A program made the position numbers and the translations under genes. A stretch of DNA of 63,183 nt from Methylotenera sp. (GTDB taxonomy: Bacteria; Pseudomonadota; Gammaproteobacteria; Burkholderiales; Methylophilaceae), in NCBI GenBank assembly GCA_020622105.1, contig JAHRYP010000001.1, positions 1 to 63,183 on the forward strand, in the 5' to 3' direction. The notes under the pieces are model-generated. The model searched no databases and had not been told where the DNA came from. It saw only the letters and a program-made list of their open reading frames with translations. Positions within the stretch are counted from its first letter, which is position 1; each line of letters begins with the position of its first letter. Of the stretch, positions 3,138 through 26,614 are shown one piece after another.

Positions 3138-5057
3138 TTAAATACTCTTCACATCATCAATGCCATATTGCTTGAGTACTTGCACGGCATTTACCTTGGC
3201 TGCATCACTCGCAAAGCTACTATCTTTAAATACTACGCGCATTACTTCAGGTTCTAGTTCCTCTTTGAGTTTGCCTATGCCCTCAGCTACAGCTTCAGTA
3301 ACGCCATCATCCAAACAAACAATCAAAGCGCCAGCGCCTACTTCATAAACTGTTTTACCAGCTATAGAGCGAGTATCAATTGGCAAGGTAAGGTCTAGGC
3401 CATATTTGAGTAGTATCTCAAATAGCACATCATCAGCATTGCGGTCAGCCTTCACCACTTGAGTGGCTTCGGCTAAGTCATGAGCCAGTGAGTCAAAATT
3501 AGCATCCCATGTTTTAAGGTTACTGGAGCTTAGTTTAAATACTTTGAAGCCTAAGTCACCTTGGGTCTCTGGGTTGTCCTTTTTAACCTTTATACTGGCT
3601 CTACGTAGGCGTTCCTTTGTAAGTTCAGCAATATTTCTTGGTTTTCCTAATAAATCGCAAAACTCTGAAGCGACCTTCTGCTCTTTTTTTGCTGGATCGA
3701 GTGCTTCTGGCAGTTGTACAAGAATGAACTTTCTTTTAACACCATCAACATTTTGGAGCATTGTTGCATGAGCAGTTGTCCCAGACCCCGCAAAAAAGTC
3801 CATTACAATGTCATCTGAATTAACTACTGTTTCGATTAACAATTTGATTAAATCAGTAGGTTTTGGAAAGTCAAAAATATTTTCTGCTAAAAGTGCTTTT
3901 ATCTCACTGCTTCCCCCTTTAGTAGAGATGCCTTCAATAATTGACTTAGGATGAATTGTGCCTTTTTCTTTTTCATACTGTAGAACACCGTTACTTTTAA
4001 AGAAAAAGCGAACAACTTTTTGTCCTTTCTGATCAATTACGTCCTGACCATCAATCCATTGTTCTATCATATCCTTCATAGTCCAAGCAGCTTCTAGAAC
4101 TACCTCATTAAGCAATTTGCCATCTTTTGCTTCAAATATTCCCTCAACTACTTTAACAGGCTCTCCCTCACCAAATAAATTAGGGAATCGTTTATCCTCA
4201 GATTCAAAATCAAGCCCAGCGGGGAATCTAATAGTTGATACAGGATTTTTTTCTGAGGGTTTTTTTATAGCTCTATCAGAAATATTCGCATCACCAGAAA
4301 AAATAAAAAATGGCAAGGTTGCCTTATTTTTTGCAAAGCAAACTATATATTCATGTTCATTTGTGAAATGTGCTGCTGCAGTTCTTCCATTCCGCCATAT
4401 TAATTTGGAAATAAAGTTTTCCTCGCCAAAAATTTCACTGCAAACTTTATGTAAGTTATCGACCTCGCGGTCGTTGATGCTTATAAATATAATGCCATCA
4501 TCTTTTAAAAGATTGCGAGCTAATTTCAATCTTGGGTAAATCATATTTAACCAATCGGTATGAAATCGGCCAGATGCTTCAGTATTTGTTCCTAACTTCC
4601 TTCCCGACTTAACTTGCCCTGTCAACTCTAAATAATTCTGAATATTATCTTTAAAATTATCTGGATATACAAAGTCACTTCCAGTGTTATAAGGGGGGTC
4701 AATGTAAATCATCTTAACTAGTTTGTGGTAGCTTTTTTGCAGCAGTTTTAACACTTCAAGGTTATCACCTTCAATAAAGAGATTTTTCGTGTCATCCCAA
4801 TCCACACTTTCTTCTTGGCAAGGTCTGAGTGTGCCAGTGCTGGGAGTTTGAGCTAGTTTACGCGCCTGTGTTTTCCCATGCCAGTTGAAGCTGTAACGTT
4901 CATCTTCGACTTCAATCTCTTCACCCAGTAATGCTTGGAGTGCTTTGAAGTCAATTTTATTTTCAGCGAGTATTTCAGGGAATAGTTCTTTCAGTTTAGT
5001 AATATTGTCTGCCACAATATCCATACTTTGGCCTGCTGATTTATTTAGTTTTTCCAT
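3138..5057 (-). CDS. mod: Type III DNA methyltransferase Mod subunit
   Basis: Adenine-N6 DNA methyltransferase and specificity subunit of a type III restriction-modification system, 639 residues. The catalytic motif IDPPYNTGSDF (motif IV) is near residue 120 and the S-adenosylmethionine motif DFFAGSGTTAHA is near residue 415. This IV-before-I order, with the target-recognition region between, is that of beta-class Mod proteins. The frame is intact. The start is supported by an AGGGAAG ribosome-binding site. The gene follows the DUF4391 gene by 17 bases and its stop lies 10 bases before the res start, so the four genes look like one operon. With res broken as read, Mod could act as a lone methyltransferase. 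The recognition sequence cannot be deduced from the protein by eye. Confidence 0.95.
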   Translation of the reverse strand: MEKLNKSAGQSMDIVADNITKLKELFPEILAENKIDFKALQALLGEEIEVEDERYSFNWHGKTQARKLAQTPSTGTLRPCQEESVDWDDTKNLFIEGDNLEVLKLLQKSYHKLVKMIYIDPPYNTGSDFVYPDNFKDNIQNYLELTGQVKSGRKLGTNTEASGRFHTDWLNMIYPRLKLARNLLKDDGIIFISINDREVDNLHKVCSEIFGEENFISKLIWRNGRTAAAHFTNEHEYIVCFAKNKATLPFFIFSGDANISDRAIKKPSEKNPVSTIRFPAGLDFESEDKRFPNLFGEGEPVKVVEGIFEAKDGKLLNEVVLEAAWTMKDMIEQWIDGQDVIDQKGQKVVRFFFKSNGVLQYEKEKGTIHPKSIIEGISTKGGSSEIKALLAENIFDFPKPTDLIKLLIETVVNSDDIVMDFFAGSGTTAHATMLQNVDGVKRKFILVQLPEALDPAKKEQKVASEFCDLLGKPRNIAELTKERLRRASIKVKKDNPETQGDLGFKVFKLSSSNLKTWDANFDSLAHDLAEATQVVKADRNADDVLFEILLKYGLDLTLPIDTRSIAGKTVYEVGAGALIVCLDDGVTEAVAEGIGKLKEELEPEVMRVVFKDSSFASDAAKVNAVQVLKQYGIDDVKSI

Positions 5058-5074
5058 TACTTCTTCCCTAACAC

Positions 5075-5854
5075 CTATGCTGATAGCTGATTTGTTATAT
5101 GTTGAATTTGTTGTTTTAGCTGCTTAATCTGCACATTGCCTTCTAGCTTGCGATTAAACTGAGTTTCATTTTTCACTTGCGCTTTTAAGCTCACAAGTTG
5201 TAGCTCTAATTGCTTTAAAGTTTGCAAATGTTGTTGGCGAAGTTTATCAGCTTCAACATCTGCTGTGAGTGCAAATTTACCTGTATGTTTAGCCGCTTCT
5301 AGTGCATTAAAGCGGGTAATGATTGATTGGTAAAATGCATATAAGTCTAACTGAGCTAGTTGTGTAAACCCAAGGCTTGAGCCAAACTGGGTTATGACTT
5401 CAGATGGAGCTGCTAAACCGTTAAGCCAGCCAGATTCAAAAAACTGCTCTACAGTTAGCTTACTACTATCTGCGCGGTTAATGCGTTTTTCAGCAAGGCA
5501 AACCCATAGGTTATTATCATGTTCAAACACCACAATAAGTGGGTAAGGTATGGCACGTTGCACCACTTCACTCAGGCGTTTAACGTGTGTGTTGGCTTTT
5601 AGTGTGATGTGGAGTAATGCAATCTCAATATATTCGCGCTCGGCATCTTCATATTTTGGTATGGCTACCGTGGCTGGCTTGAGCGTGTAACGCCACTCAA
5701 TGGATTCAATATCTTCATTGATCCATTTTCGGTCCGAAATGGTGAGGTCTGCATTTTCTAGCAATTGTTTTTTATAAATGCGTGCTTGTAGTAAGGCTTT
5801 TTCAGGCAAGCCTAACTGCTGGTAAAACCAAGTGGAATTAATAGACTCACTCAT
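5075..5854 (-). CDS. DUF4391 domain protein
   Basis: A 259-residue protein that I assign to the DUF4391 family from its overall character and from its position between a SNF2-type helicase and a type III Mod gene. The family function is not established. The first ~200 residues look globular and include EREYIEIALLHITLKANTHVKRLSEVVQRAIPYPLIVVF; the last ~50 residues are strongly charged and helical with glutamine-rich heptads, probably a coiled coil. The start overlaps the end of the helicase gene by four bases (ATGA), so translation is probably coupled. By context it is an accessory part of the restriction or defence operon, perhaps bridging the helicase and Mod/Res. No catalytic motif is visible. 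Confidence 0.7.
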   Translation of the reverse strand: MSESINSTWFYQQLGLPEKALLQARIYKKQLLENADLTISDRKWINEDIESIEWRYTLKPATVAIPKYEDAEREYIEIALLHITLKANTHVKRLSEVVQRAIPYPLIVVFEHDNNLWVCLAEKRINRADSSKLTVEQFFESGWLNGLAAPSEVITQFGSSLGFTQLAQLDLYAFYQSIITRFNALEAAKHTGKFALTADVEADKLRQQHLQTLKQLELQLVSLKAQVKNETQFNRKLEGNVQIKQLKQQIQHITNQLSA

Positions 5855-9066: not shown

Positions 9067-9224
9067 TCTATTTCTTCCCTGAAGTAACAGCTAGAGTTTC
9101 ACAAGGTATCACTGCGTGTTATCTTAAGTGAAATGCACGGATAACGCTATCGAATACGGCGGCAGTATGATTCTGAGCAATTGTAGTGAATTTAAAAAAA
9201 GTTACTTCCAATGACAACACGTCA

Positions 9225-9440
9225 ACATAAAATTCCTTTTTGACGTTTCTTCTCGAGAAAATCGTCATTAATGACTTTTAATCGTCATCATTAACGGATG
9301 ACAAAGAGGATGTCAGCATCAATATTTGTTAATTTCGAGCCAGTTTTGATGTCAAAACAGATTGAATCCTATTTTTAACCGGATGACAGTGTCATCTGGT
9401 GCACCCCTCTTGATAGCTATATTATCAATTTGATGACATC
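9225..9440. promoter_or_regulatory. Cluster of TGAC/GTCA half-sites and palindromes
   Basis: About ten copies of (A)TGAC or GTCA(T) occur in roughly 215 bases between the divergent SNF2 operon and the NUDIX pair. Several form palindromes: GTCATTAATGAC near 9266 and GATGACAGTGTCATC near 9383, and GTCATCATTAACGGATGAC near 9284 is an imperfect inverted repeat. This looks like multiple operators for one dimeric regulator that could control both divergent operons. No regulator gene lies next to it in this window. The identity of the regulator is unknown. Confidence 0.5.
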
Positions 9441-9770
9441 GTTGTTAAGCCAGCCAGTAAAGCTGGTCGTGCTCCGTACGGAATAAGGGCCACAAGTTGG
9501 GCTGCGCGGAAGAAAACAATGATGAATGACCGGAGTGACCCGCTCCCCGGAAACGGATATACAGACTAGCCGGGTAATTACCGGCCTATGCCCAAATTCA
9601 CCGCGCTAGATTTATTAGCTAGACTGCAAGATTGTCACCATACAAGCTTGCCTGTGACGGTGAGGCAGACGGTGTGGCCCACCGAAGACTAACAAGTCAG
9701 GACGTCTGGTAAAGGTGTTCTCCCCCAATGATTGATTGTTCAAGGTTGGGCAGATGAACGGGTTAGGGTT
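9436..9770 (+). ncRNA. Candidate structured RNA or long leader, unidentified
   Basis: No plausible gene is present, but the stretch is full of short complementary arms. Examples are CCAGC/GCTGG at 9450-9466, a TCCG/CGGA hairpin at 9472-9482, GGAG/CTCC near 9531-9546, GCCGG/CCGGC around a GTAATTA loop near 9569-9585, GTCAC/GTGAC near 9634-9659, CACC/GGTG enclosing AGAC/GTCT near 9680-9717, and GTTCA/TGAAC near 9738-9758. It also has several GGA triplets. It lies directly upstream of the NUDIX gene on the same strand, so it may be a 5' leader or an independent RNA. It does not match tRNA, tmRNA, RNase P or group II intron landmarks I know. The strand is assumed from the downstream genes. Confidence 0.4.
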
Positions 9771-9831
9771 GCTCTCTCAAGGTTATTAAACGCAATTTCT
9801 AACAGTGTGAAATTTATTCAATGGGAAATTC

Positions 9832-10473
9832 ATGACCACTTATCACCCGAATCTAGACGAAAATGGCGCAAAGGTTGTGCTGACAACACCAAGCCAGCCA
9901 TCACCACTATCAGCATGGAGCAATCCTATAGAAGTAGCCACTGTGATACCGAATGGCGTATTACCTACAGCGCTGAATGGAATCCCTTTGTCCAACTGGA
10001 CTGCCGCTCCGAACACTCTTAGCGCATGGGAAGCACTTGCTGCACAATCGAATGTTAGCGAGCCAGTCTTTACCCCACCTCCCCACAAAAAACATGCTGC
10101 AGGTGTTGTCATTGAAGAGTCTGATGGCAGAATCTGGCTGATGTCACCATCTAACAGTCATGGAGGCTACATCAACACCTTACCCAAGGGTCAGGTCGAC
10201 CCCGGCGCCAGTAAACAGGCCACCGCGATAAAAGAAGCTTTTGAAGAATCAGGTCTGCATGTAGAGCTAACAGAGTTTTTAATAGATACGGACCGAACAA
10301 CCAGCTACACACGCTATTACCGAGCAAAGCGCATCGGTGGCAATCCTGCTGATATGGGCTGGGAATCACAAGCGATACATTTAGTCCCGAGAAATATGTT
10401 AAATCTGCATCTAATTCATCCGAGTGACCAGCCATTATTGAAGCTACTTTTAAAGGAAAAGAATGAAATCTGA
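9832..10473 (+). CDS. NUDIX hydrolase
   Basis: A 213-residue NUDIX-family protein that probably hydrolyses a nucleoside diphosphate-X substrate. The box lies at about residues 123-145 (GQVDPGASKQATAIKEAFEE, then SGL). Compared with the family pattern Gx5Ex7REUxEExGU, the first Glu is Ala and the Arg is Lys, while the metal-binding EExG core is intact. The first ~80 residues are proline-rich with no recognised domain. The gene ends inside the start of the ADP-ribosylglycohydrolase gene (overlap of 11 bases), so the two are probably co-translated and may share an ADP-ribose or NAD-derived substrate. A good ribosome-binding site is not obvious upstream of the ATG, which follows the candidate structured RNA. 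Confidence 0.85.
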   Translation: MTTYHPNLDENGAKVVLTTPSQPSPLSAWSNPIEVATVIPNGVLPTALNGIPLSNWTAAPNTLSAWEALAAQSNVSEPVFTPPPHKKHAAGVVIEESDGRIWLMSPSNSHGGYINTLPKGQVDPGASKQATAIKEAFEESGLHVELTEFLIDTDRTTSYTRYYRAKRIGGNPADMGWESQAIHLVPRNMLNLHLIHPSDQPLLKLLLKEKNEI

Positions 10474-11374
10474 ACTTATTGATCGCGCACGTGGTTGCCT
10501 GCTTGGATTGGCAATTGGTGATGCCATTGGCACCACAGTGGAGTTTAAGCCAAGAGGTAGTTTTACGCCGATGACTGATATGGTTGGTGGTGGGCCATTT
10601 CATCTCAAAGCTGGTGAATGGACGGATGACACCTCCATGGCTTTATGTCTTGGTGCCAGTCTGCTAGAAAAAGGCTTTGACCTGCACGATCAAATCACAA
10701 AATACGTGAAGTGGTACCGAGAAGGATACATGAGTAGTAATGGCAGGTGTTTCGACATCGGGATCGCAACCCGTGAAGCTTTGAGCCGTTTTATTGCAAG
10801 CGGCAACCCAGAGGCAGGGTCTACCAACCCAAGAAGCGCTGGCAACGGTTGTATCATGCGCTTGGCCCCAGTCCCCATCATGCATGCAGACAATCCAGAG
10901 AACGCAGCAAGATTATCTGCAGAACAATCCAAAACGACGCATGGCGCAACTGAGTGTATTGAAGCCAGCCAGCTATTTGGTGGAATCCTAGCCCGTGCGA
11001 TAAAAGGTGAGCATATCAAAGCACAGATTCTAGTGCCGGAGGTAAAAAGCAGTTTCCAGTATTCTTCCGCCCGCATTCAAACTATCGCTAATGGCGCGTA
11101 TTTTGAATATGACAGTCTGCAGGTTAGAGGCACTGGTTATGTAGTCGACAGTCTAGAAGCTGCGCTATGGTGTTTCCACATTACTGACAATTTCAAAGAT
11201 GCTGTATTAACTGCCGCAAATCTTGGTGATGATGCTGACACCACAGCTGCAATCACCGGCCAGATTGCTGGTGCTTATTATGGCGAAGCTGACATTCCTC
11301 AACACTGGCTAGACAAAGTCGTTATGGCTAAATCGATTGGTGAGATGGCAGAACAACTGTCACAAAGATCATAA
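10463..11374 (+). CDS. ADP-ribosylglycohydrolase (DraG/ARH family)
   Basis: A 303-residue protein of the DraG/ARH family, which removes ADP-ribose from proteins or small molecules using two metal ions. Visible family motifs are GCLLGLAIGDAIG at the N-terminus, the metal ligands in WTDDTSM near residue 55 and the second metal site NLGDDADTTAA near residue 253. The length is normal. The ATG overlaps the end of the NUDIX gene and is preceded by AAGGAAAAG. Together the pair could release ADP-ribose and then cleave it, but the substrate is unknown. An 81-base remnant matching the 3' end of this gene lies at 21149-21229, so a paralogue once existed in the same island. Confidence 0.92.
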   Translation: MKSELIDRARGCLLGLAIGDAIGTTVEFKPRGSFTPMTDMVGGGPFHLKAGEWTDDTSMALCLGASLLEKGFDLHDQITKYVKWYREGYMSSNGRCFDIGIATREALSRFIASGNPEAGSTNPRSAGNGCIMRLAPVPIMHADNPENAARLSAEQSKTTHGATECIEASQLFGGILARAIKGEHIKAQILVPEVKSSFQYSSARIQTIANGAYFEYDSLQVRGTGYVVDSLEAALWCFHITDNFKDAVLTAANLGDDADTTAAITGQIAGAYYGEADIPQHWLDKVVMAKSIGEMAEQLSQRS

Positions 11375-25158: not shown

Positions 25159-26373
25159 TTAAGACTGCTTGAATTGCAGTACTGTTGCGCCAGCCTTAAG
25201 CTCGTCTAAATAATCAGCCCACTGCTGCATCATCACCTTACGTTGTTCGATAAATTTGGTGCGGTTGTAAGCTTGGCCAAGTATGTCTGGTACTTTGTGT
25301 GCTAGTTGATGCTCAATGATGGATGGGTCAATGTTAAGTCGCTCGTGAAGAATAGTTCTGGCCATAGCTCTAAATCCGTGACCTGTTATGTCTTTCTGGG
25401 TGTCATACCCCATACGCTTAAGCGCAGCATTTACTGCACTCTCGCTCATAGGTTTAAGTGGGGAATGCCCGCCTTGGAATACATATTCACCATGGCCGGA
25501 TAGTGGTTGTAGTTCTCTAAAAATTGCTACAGCTTGAGTTGAAAGTGGTACTAGATGGTCTGTTTTAGTTTTAGAAACTAGGTATTGCCAAGTGCCAGCA
25601 TCTAAATCAATATCTTTCCATTTGGCTTGTCTCAATTCACTTGGACGAGTGAAAACTAGGGGAGAGAGTTTTAGCGCACACTGTACGGTAAATGTGCCAT
25701 TAAAAGCATCAATAGCTCTTAACAGCTCTGCAATTTGCTGAGGATCAGTGAATGCTGCCATGTGCTTTACAGTAGAGGCGGGGAGTGCGCCTTTTAGATC
25801 GGCTGTTACATCTCTATCAGCTCGCCCCGTTTGGACTGCATATCTAAAAACTTGCCCGGCTGTTTGTAAGGCCCGATGAGCAGTTTCTAGCTTATTTAGT
25901 TTTTCAATCCGCTTAACAACGTCAAGCATTTGCGGCGCTGAAATACTGCTTATAGGTTTGCTACCAATCCATGGAAATAAGTAAAGCTCAAATCTTCTAA
26001 TCACTTTGTCCTTGTGGCTGTCTGCTTTGTTTTTCATGTGAGATTGCCACCATTCGCGGGCAACAACCTCAAAACTATTCTCAGCATTAGATAGATTTGA
26101 CGCTGTCTGAGCCTTTTTATGATCGCTAGGATCTACTGGAGGATCGTTTGCAAGTAACTTTCTGGCGTTATCCCTTTTTTCTCTGGCTTGTATAAGAGGG
26201 ACATCGGGATAATTACCAAGCGCCAATGTTTTTCTTTTGCCAAGAAAACGATAATCAAAGCGCCAAAGCTTACTCCCAGTGGCATTAATAATTAAATATA
26301 GCCCTTTTTCATCCGAAAGTTTGTAAGGCTTATCCTTAGGCTTAGCGTTGTTTATAGCTGTTACTGATAGCAT
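25159..26373 (-). CDS. Tyrosine-type integrase (P4-like)
   Basis: A 404-residue site-specific recombinase with a DUF4102-type N-terminal arm-binding domain (KPYKLSDEKGLYLIINATGSKLWRFDYRF, GNYPDVPLIQAREKR). In the catalytic domain the first Arg is in TRPSELRQAKWKDID, the His-x-x-Arg is in ITGHGFRAMART, the next His/Trp position is HQLAHKVPD and the nucleophile is the Tyr in GQAYNRT. All five are present, so it looks active. It lies 165 bases from a tRNA-Met gene, the usual target type for this family, so the tRNA probably marks the right end of the island. The promoter region holds four TGACGGTA half-sites. Confidence 0.95.
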   Translation of the reverse strand: MLSVTAINNAKPKDKPYKLSDEKGLYLIINATGSKLWRFDYRFLGKRKTLALGNYPDVPLIQAREKRDNARKLLANDPPVDPSDHKKAQTASNLSNAENSFEVVAREWWQSHMKNKADSHKDKVIRRFELYLFPWIGSKPISSISAPQMLDVVKRIEKLNKLETAHRALQTAGQVFRYAVQTGRADRDVTADLKGALPASTVKHMAAFTDPQQIAELLRAIDAFNGTFTVQCALKLSPLVFTRPSELRQAKWKDIDLDAGTWQYLVSKTKTDHLVPLSTQAVAIFRELQPLSGHGEYVFQGGHSPLKPMSESAVNAALKRMGYDTQKDITGHGFRAMARTILHERLNIDPSIIEHQLAHKVPDILGQAYNRTKFIEQRKVMMQQWADYLDELKAGATVLQFKQS

Positions 26374-26537: not shown

Positions 26538-26614
26538 TGGTGGTGAAAGAGGGACTTGAACCCTCGACCCCAGGATTATGAATCCTGTGCTCTAACCAGC
26601 TGAGCTACATCACC
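26538..26614 (-). tRNA. tRNA-Met (CAT anticodon)
   Basis: A 77-base cloverleaf including encoded CCA, read on the minus strand. The anticodon loop reads GATTCATAATC; GTTCAAGTC is the T loop; the D arm has AGCTCAGCTGGTTAGAGC. The sequence resembles elongator tRNA-Met more than the CAT-anticodon tRNA-Ile, but the latter cannot be fully ruled out by eye. Its 3' end faces the integrase, so it is the likely attachment site. Confidence 0.9.

Follow-up and report, generated by a model that had tools for sequence, protein, structure and literature searches.

A widespread, mostly viral class of structured RNA with a nested double-pseudoknot core, and its copy ahead of a NUDIX-ADP-ribosylglycohydrolase gene pair in Methylotenera

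The window, by which we mean the whole 63,183-nt stretch of Methylotenera sp. DNA analysed here (contig JAHRYP010000001.1), carries on its + strand a gene for a NUDIX hydrolase with an extra N-terminal domain (9832..10473; PF00293, E 6.3e-12), and, overlapping it by 11 nt, a gene for an ADP-ribosylglycohydrolase (ARH; 10463..11374; PF03747, E 6.3e-80). The N-terminal domain (9832-10092, ~85 aa) is conserved, has no Pfam match, and has relatives on viral contigs also. The pair lies in an island (127-26614) that includes type III restriction, HKD-Snf2, PDC-S53 helicase, TIR, HEPN, SNase, Y-family DNA polymerase, KilA-N and Mob genes, and that ends with a phage-type integrase gene (25159-26373) beside a tRNA gene (26541-26614). 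Ahead of the pair, ORFs of 50 aa or more are absent from both strands of 9067-9731. Here lies a structured RNA element (9414..9800, + strand), whose extent we take from an interval conserved at 88% identity, over 388 alignment columns, in a second Methylotenera genome (L003), where the copy again precedes the orthologous NUDIX gene. An earlier note on this DNA had marked 9436-9831 as self-complementary and free of genes; that region is real, the conserved unit being shifted slightly with respect to it.

Between a divergent Snf2-type gene and the RNA, TGAC/GTCA half-sites are repeated (9260-9440), and a palindrome, ACCGGATGACA-G-TGTCATCTGGT, with 11-nt arms that are 91% complementary, occupies 9378..9400; palindrome and half-sites would together make a likely operator. 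A candidate -10 box, TATATT (9419-9424), would place the start of transcription near 9431, with the centre of the palindrome ~42 nt before it. A promoter scan returned 7 sites against 1.6 expected, two of them on the + strand, and the proposed -10 box is not among these. In L003 the palindrome region has diverged.

The + strand of the interval has a predicted folding energy of -126.1 kcal/mol (z = -2.0), a stability equalled by 2 of 100 shuffled sequences, and the - strand is unremarkable (z = -0.5; 24 of 100 shuffles as stable). Given a z of only -2.0, folding energy by itself is modest evidence, and comparison with homologues is decisive. The consensus fold of the window and L003 reaches -101.3 kcal/mol, against -79 +/- 6 in column shuffles, none of which matched it (0 of 100). 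All 96 pairs of this fold, which was fitted to the same two sequences, are kept, and compatible changes number 2 on both sides of a pair and 8 on one side. Since the two-sequence consensus fold is nested, it draws helix S1, described below, as a 5-bp hairpin in place of helix S2.

The class is defined by its core (9467..9520, + strand), a nested double pseudoknot in which helix S1 crosses helix S2 and hairpin B crosses helix S3, and which is identified by covariation and by a match (9467-9518) to R2, a covariance model built from viral sequences only. S1 pairs CGU (9468-9470) with ACG (9478-9480), its variants in homologues being CGC:GCG, GGC:GCC and AGC:GCU; in the window and L003 it can be extended to 5 bp, then competing with part of S2, as in the nested fold. 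S2 joins CUCCG (9472-9476) to CGGAAG (9507-9512) with one bulged A, and its last pair is G:C in 8 and A:U in 7 of the 15 distinct cores recovered with the second of two search patterns (below), which left the 5' base free. Hairpin B, GGCC (9488-9491) with GGCU (9500-9503), draws on pair counts in viral cores, where its outer pair is A:U in 22, G:C in 6, G:U in 5 and unpaired in 4 of 37. S3, supported by covariation, is formed between the loop of this hairpin, GUUG (9496-9499), and CAAU (9517-9520), and reads GUUG:CAAC in L003. With both pseudoknots and the conserved linkers AAG, GCG and GAAAA, the window fits the class, S1 and S3 being read directly from the sequence.

Adjoining the core, also on the + strand, a 5' hairpin is predicted (CCAGC/GCUGG, 9449..9467), at the position of which GAAAC/GUUUC is seen by eye in L053, a betaproteobacterial MAG. 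A proposed long-range helix between UGACCC (9536-9541) and GGGUUA (9760-9765), near the 3' end, has modest support from the sequences and the consensus fold, and its counterpart in L210 would be UGACCC:GGGUCA. In the window and L003, 9437-9446 is able to pair with 9514-9523; such a pairing would compete with S3, so that a switch is possible. The body behind the core varies by subtype and is too divergent for whole-RNA alignment across body types. The motif GUGACCCGC is common (by eye) to the window, L210, L183, L275, L304 and L322, and a pattern for the window's own body subtype matches only L210 and L304.

We started from 80 genome contigs that carry a relative of the NUDIX gene; among them L053, found via its NUDIX gene, has a similar 55-nt stretch ahead of an ARH gene. 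Search patterns were composed from the shared letters and run on IMG/VR contigs: pattern 1, in which S1, S2 and hairpin B were partly fixed, recovered at least 120 stretches, and pattern 2, which fixed the 3' strands of hairpin B and S2 together with the first S3 pair, recovered 43. A core profile splits off 105 records at E <=9.8e-5 (the next has E 0.075), comprising 99 viral loci and six records for the window, L003, L053 and re-fetched copies; class copies on IMG/VR contigs therefore number at least 99, from 158 pattern-matched viral stretches listed. By pattern, 61 of the 120 listed pattern-1 stretches belong to the class, as do 43 of 43 from pattern 2, which helped to build the profile and so fit it by construction (five are in both). 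Among whole bacterial genomes, we find two convincing matches in 52 of the genus Methylotenera; 399 genomes of the order add two to the window (L340 and L341), and among 369 from the class and 398 from the phylum the window alone exceeds 25.1 bits. These tallies are lower bounds, from overlapping samples, as few of the many candidates per genome were scored. Model matches of ~20-25 bits in whole genomes were judged to be chance, several of them lying inside protein genes (by eye). The RNA is rare in whole bacterial genomes, and is mostly found on viral contigs.

Evidence for a structured RNA, as the earlier note had supposed, comes from the Methylotenera copy, from the consensus fold that surpasses its shuffles, and above all from strong covariation in the cores of viral homologues. 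In 37 viral cores, with the window and bacterial relatives left out, 98.3% of pairs are standard, against 89.3% when shuffled, and pairing falls to 15-48% when partners are slid; both-side changes number 43, against 9.6 in shuffles. In a 40-sequence set the corresponding values are 98.2% of cells paired, 89.4% and 15-49%. For S3, the mean run is 2.97 pairs over 31 distinct combinations, against 0.91 when shuffled (0 of 10,000), and 3.05 against 0.93 over the 20 combinations from loci found by pattern 1 only, in which S3 was unfixed (0 of 10,000); for the 13 combinations from pattern-2 loci, counted from the second pair onward, it is 1.54 against 0.69 (1 of 10,000). Because the core sequences are kin, these shuffle results are not probabilities. 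R2, which models S2 and hairpin B only and includes neither the window nor L003 nor L053, scores L053 at 59.7 bits, L003 at 47.3, the window at 47.1 (E 3.6e-12), L340 at 30.4 and L341 at 29.5. The RNA in 9414-9800 belongs to a widespread class of structured RNAs, defined by the nested double pseudoknot at their core and found mostly on viral contigs.

This class is apparently undescribed and outside Rfam 15. The interval matches no Rfam 15 family, in agreement with the earlier note, which had not recognised the RNA as belonging to any class; at gathering and permissive cut-offs the window gave weak chance matches only, the best being Six3os1_1 (20.6 bits against a cut-off of 50). Likewise, no Rfam match covers the RNA in 12 class-bearing loci at the gathering cut-off, or in 8 more at E <=0.5, and matches elsewhere on those 12 are to tRNA and Proteo-phage-1 only, a Proteo-phage-1 RNA (RF03044, 65.5 bits) sharing a contig with a class copy at L295 8990-9074. 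Rfam families include GOLLD, ROOL, OLE, HEARO and the group I and II introns; the match to a known mobile intron by which the earlier note would have been refuted did not arise, no intron family being matched. When the window RNA and its viral counterparts were compared by blastn with annotated phages and plasmids, nothing relevant emerged (one match is 25 nt in a Klebsiella phage reductase gene), and an ARH-based viral scan came up empty. The class is unnamed in the literature titles and abstract openings searched, a coverage outside which most subscription papers fall.

On viral contigs the RNA keeps varied company. Among 117 neighbour ORFs from 44 non-redundant viral loci (L304, the window, L003 and L053 being left out), no family occurs more than 6 times in the matches listed, and the families named at the head of the lists (25 of 115 PHROGs, 25 of 26 Pfam families) include ParB-like (6), DNA helicase, primase, NinB, RusA, replication initiation, HNH and terminase. 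Such variety in the downstream genes makes a gene-specific riboswitch less likely. The nearest reliable downstream ORF is on the strand of the RNA in 22 of the 27 loci that have one (17 of the 44 have none), and on the opposite strand in 5, where it stands second to fourth in a crude ORF list. Four copies (L306, L314, L340, L341) start 0-13 nt after the stop codon of a phage-type primase gene; for L340 and L341, which are in bacterial genomes, the upstream genes match phage DNA primase in PHROGs (E 2.7e-28 and 1.6e-26) and Toprim. Similarly, the RNA of L296 begins 10 nt after a phage repressor-like gene, and a terminase gene lies upstream in L322 (second ORF). The copies adjacent to a stop codon leave no space for a promoter, and are consequently probably co-transcribed with the preceding gene.

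A second undescribed structured RNA often ends just upstream. A T-run lies at most 45 nt before the core in 35 of the 44 loci (background 1.7), at a distance of 4-26 nt and most commonly 14 nt (11 of 35); 9 of the 44 lack it. Where the sequence reaches far enough (34 loci), the stretch before the T-run is predicted to fold into long hairpins, with an internal bulge whose complementarity to the 5' part spans 7.2 nt on average, against 4.3 when permuted (0 of 2,000), a test that covers 23 of the 34 upstream RNAs, some of them near relatives, the 11 without a clear bulge in the predicted fold having been dropped. Under a strict test, a perfect stem beside the T-run is present in only 11 of the 44 loci (background 0.6). 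This companion (e.g. in L299, L187 and L205) extends up to ~130 nt before the T-run and combines a covarying pseudoknot with a terminator hairpin that is very long, with promoter-like sequence in its upstream part (by eye). It has no Rfam match in the 12 carriers scanned (5 at the gathering cut-off, 7 at E <=0.5), and the window, L003 and L053 show no RNA of its type ahead of the core. A pairing of the sequence preceding the T-run with that before S1 was refuted (3.60 against 3.63 permuted; 3335 of 5000).

In the window and L003 the core lies ~310 nt before the NUDIX start, and in L053 it lies 257-293 nt before the ARH start, with NUDIX ~2 kb further on; in all three the strand is that of the gene. 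These are the three loci at which the RNA is near ARH genes, two of them in one genus. Of 80 bacterial NUDIX loci 2 have the RNA, and of 80 viral ones none; these loci are fetched stretches that in some cases end at contig ends (L052 and L056 start inside ARH). The 15 further ARH loci lack it, a single match of 10.5 bits being at chance level (L027 is counted among both the 15 and the 80). Moreover, relatives of NUDIX and ARH are absent from the 99 viral RNA loci listed (tblastn, E up to 0.1). The three counts point to local recruitment as the origin of the pairing of RNA with NUDIX-ARH in the window, L003 and L053. The tie to an ADP-ribose enzyme pair that the earlier note drew thus survives at three loci with ARH but does not extend to the class, as most copies are viral and lack both enzymes by tblastn, and most relatives of the window NUDIX lack the RNA in the stretches examined; its suggestion of a sensor, guide or substrate received no direct support.

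The neighbours of this unit are defence-like: type III restriction and HKD-Snf2 genes and PDC-S53, TIR and HEPN domains in the window, HsdR-like (by eye), HARE-HTH and SNF2-Mrr genes in L003, and Mrr in L053. An RNA-NUDIX-ARH unit with different neighbours in two Methylotenera genomes fits a mobile defence cassette. Ahead of the RNA in L003 is a gene (4599-5579) for a protein with an HRSWTG motif and no Pfam match, and in L027 (5281-6624) a sequence similar to it by eye is fused to NUDIX. On an Acidovorax plasmid (L350; NZ_AP029020.1, 1519-3909) a NUDIX-ARH pair stands, in the absence of the RNA, beside an opposite-strand RNA 2'-phosphotransferase gene, an arrangement hinting at a link to RNA repair.

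As to function, we infer that in phages the class may serve mainly as regulatory RNA of the leader type, heading an operon or lying inside it, which would act on the transcription or expression of the genes behind it, whichever genes these are. The 22 of 27 same-strand genes, the copies adjacent to stop codons and the variety of genes favour such a general leader over a gene-specific riboswitch. For the window, the reading we prefer, at somewhat less than an even chance, is that a phage-derived copy was recruited as the 5' leader of a mobile NUDIX-ARH cassette in a defence island and tunes the expression of its operon. Transcription of the cassette would start in the operator-rich region 9260-9440, the level of downstream expression would depend on the folded leader, possibly in response to phage infection, and the enzymes would then take ADP-ribose off macromolecules and hydrolyse the product. 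The enzymatic half of this proposal derives from PMC9503650, in which ARG systems that lack a linked transferase are proposed to counteract ADP-ribosylation by viruses. Several observations count against a leader: on viral contigs the RNA is often behind the terminator of another RNA, in L053 it precedes ARH with NUDIX far behind, some downstream ORFs are on the opposite strand, the window and L003 are close relatives that amount to about one event, and in the window the proposed -10 box is not among the sites given by the promoter scan and the palindrome is not shared with L003. A further step, by which recognition or processing of the RNA class during infection would switch on NUDIX-ARH and so reverse ADP-ribosylation by the phage, a captured viral RNA having become an infection-responsive defence trigger, strikes us as improbable.

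The 5 opposite-strand cases leave room for a role in trans, and an unlikely but substantial alternative to the leader is a stable RNA, processed or made from its own promoter, able to bind RNA polymerase, the ribosome, an RNase or some other host factor; the window copy would then be a passenger, or a decoy retained against the copies of phages. A strongly conserved core amid varying neighbour genes would suit this alternative, as would those 5 ORFs and the likeness to GOLLD and ROOL as large pseudoknotted RNAs (PMC12286853); however, some copies have no promoter space behind the preceding stop codon, T-runs 230-400 nt past the core start are not enriched (6 of 41 loci against a background of 6.7), and placement is leader-like at all three ARH loci. 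Could the element instead be a non-functional remnant of phage DNA, given that its source class is viral and that the island has an integrase gene beside a tRNA gene? We consider this very unlikely, as the same genes stand behind the RNA in two genomes with different surroundings, the 2 both-side and 8 one-side changes all preserve pairing, and the core is intact. That the RNA is a substrate or sensor of NUDIX and ARH, for example an ADP-ribosylated or NAD-capped RNA, is suggested by adjacency at three loci and by the related Acidovorax pair beside a phosphotransferase gene, from which the RNA is absent, yet it becomes highly improbable when the RNA accompanies just 2 of the 80 bacterial NUDIX loci, none of the 80 viral ones and none of the 15 other ARH loci (barring the chance-level match), and when relatives of either enzyme are missing, at E <=0.1, from the 99 viral loci listed. 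Terminator T-runs are a target of group IIC introns, and the RNA is often directly behind such runs; nevertheless, a mobile intron, ribozyme or known riboswitch is scarcely credible, with no Rfam match in the window or 20 other carriers and no upstream T-run in 9 of 44 loci.

The novelty here is a new RNA family, the broad kind, structured RNAs of phages, being already known. For phage RNA biology it is a new object, with at least 99 copies, a supported core, and a companion RNA in many loci. The presence of the RNA near ARH genes in two lineages also provides a testable link between phage RNA and defence against ADP-ribosylation.

Among known systems, ARG-centred anti-ADP-ribosylation conflict systems resemble the window in that ARH stands in a defence setting, often with Nudix involved (PMC9503650). 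The 19 window proteins scanned with Pfam, part of the ORFs of the island, include PF03747 and neither an ADP-ribosyltransferase nor a Nudix or WYL transcription factor, the NUDIX protein having PF00293 only. As that source describes them, ARG systems have the Nudix domain in a transcription repressor, whereas the window has a protein without a Pfam DNA-binding domain and an RNA ahead of it; a Nudix or WYL transcription factor is reported there for >42% of ARG systems, and hence is not required (PMC9503650). GOLLD and ROOL are described as large, pseudoknotted noncoding RNAs of unknown function, borne by phages and prophages (PMC12286853), and the class to which the window RNA belongs is likewise large, pseudoknotted and phage-borne. 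It differs from them in matching no Rfam family, in size (~390 nt in the window; the ROOL studied has 659 nt, and many GOLLD RNAs exceed 800 nt; PMC12286853), in its core fold, and in having nameable neighbours that are mostly replication and recombination genes, not tRNA islands. RNA-only homo-oligomeric assembly is a trait of GOLLD/ROOL-like RNA complexes. The put RNA of phage HK022, which suppresses termination in cis via RNA polymerase, is set apart from the window RNA by size and fold, being ~70 nt with two stem-loops, whereas the window has a double-pseudoknot core in a much larger RNA. Common to put and the window RNA would be the placing of a phage RNA within a transcript that it could regulate (PMC9378689).
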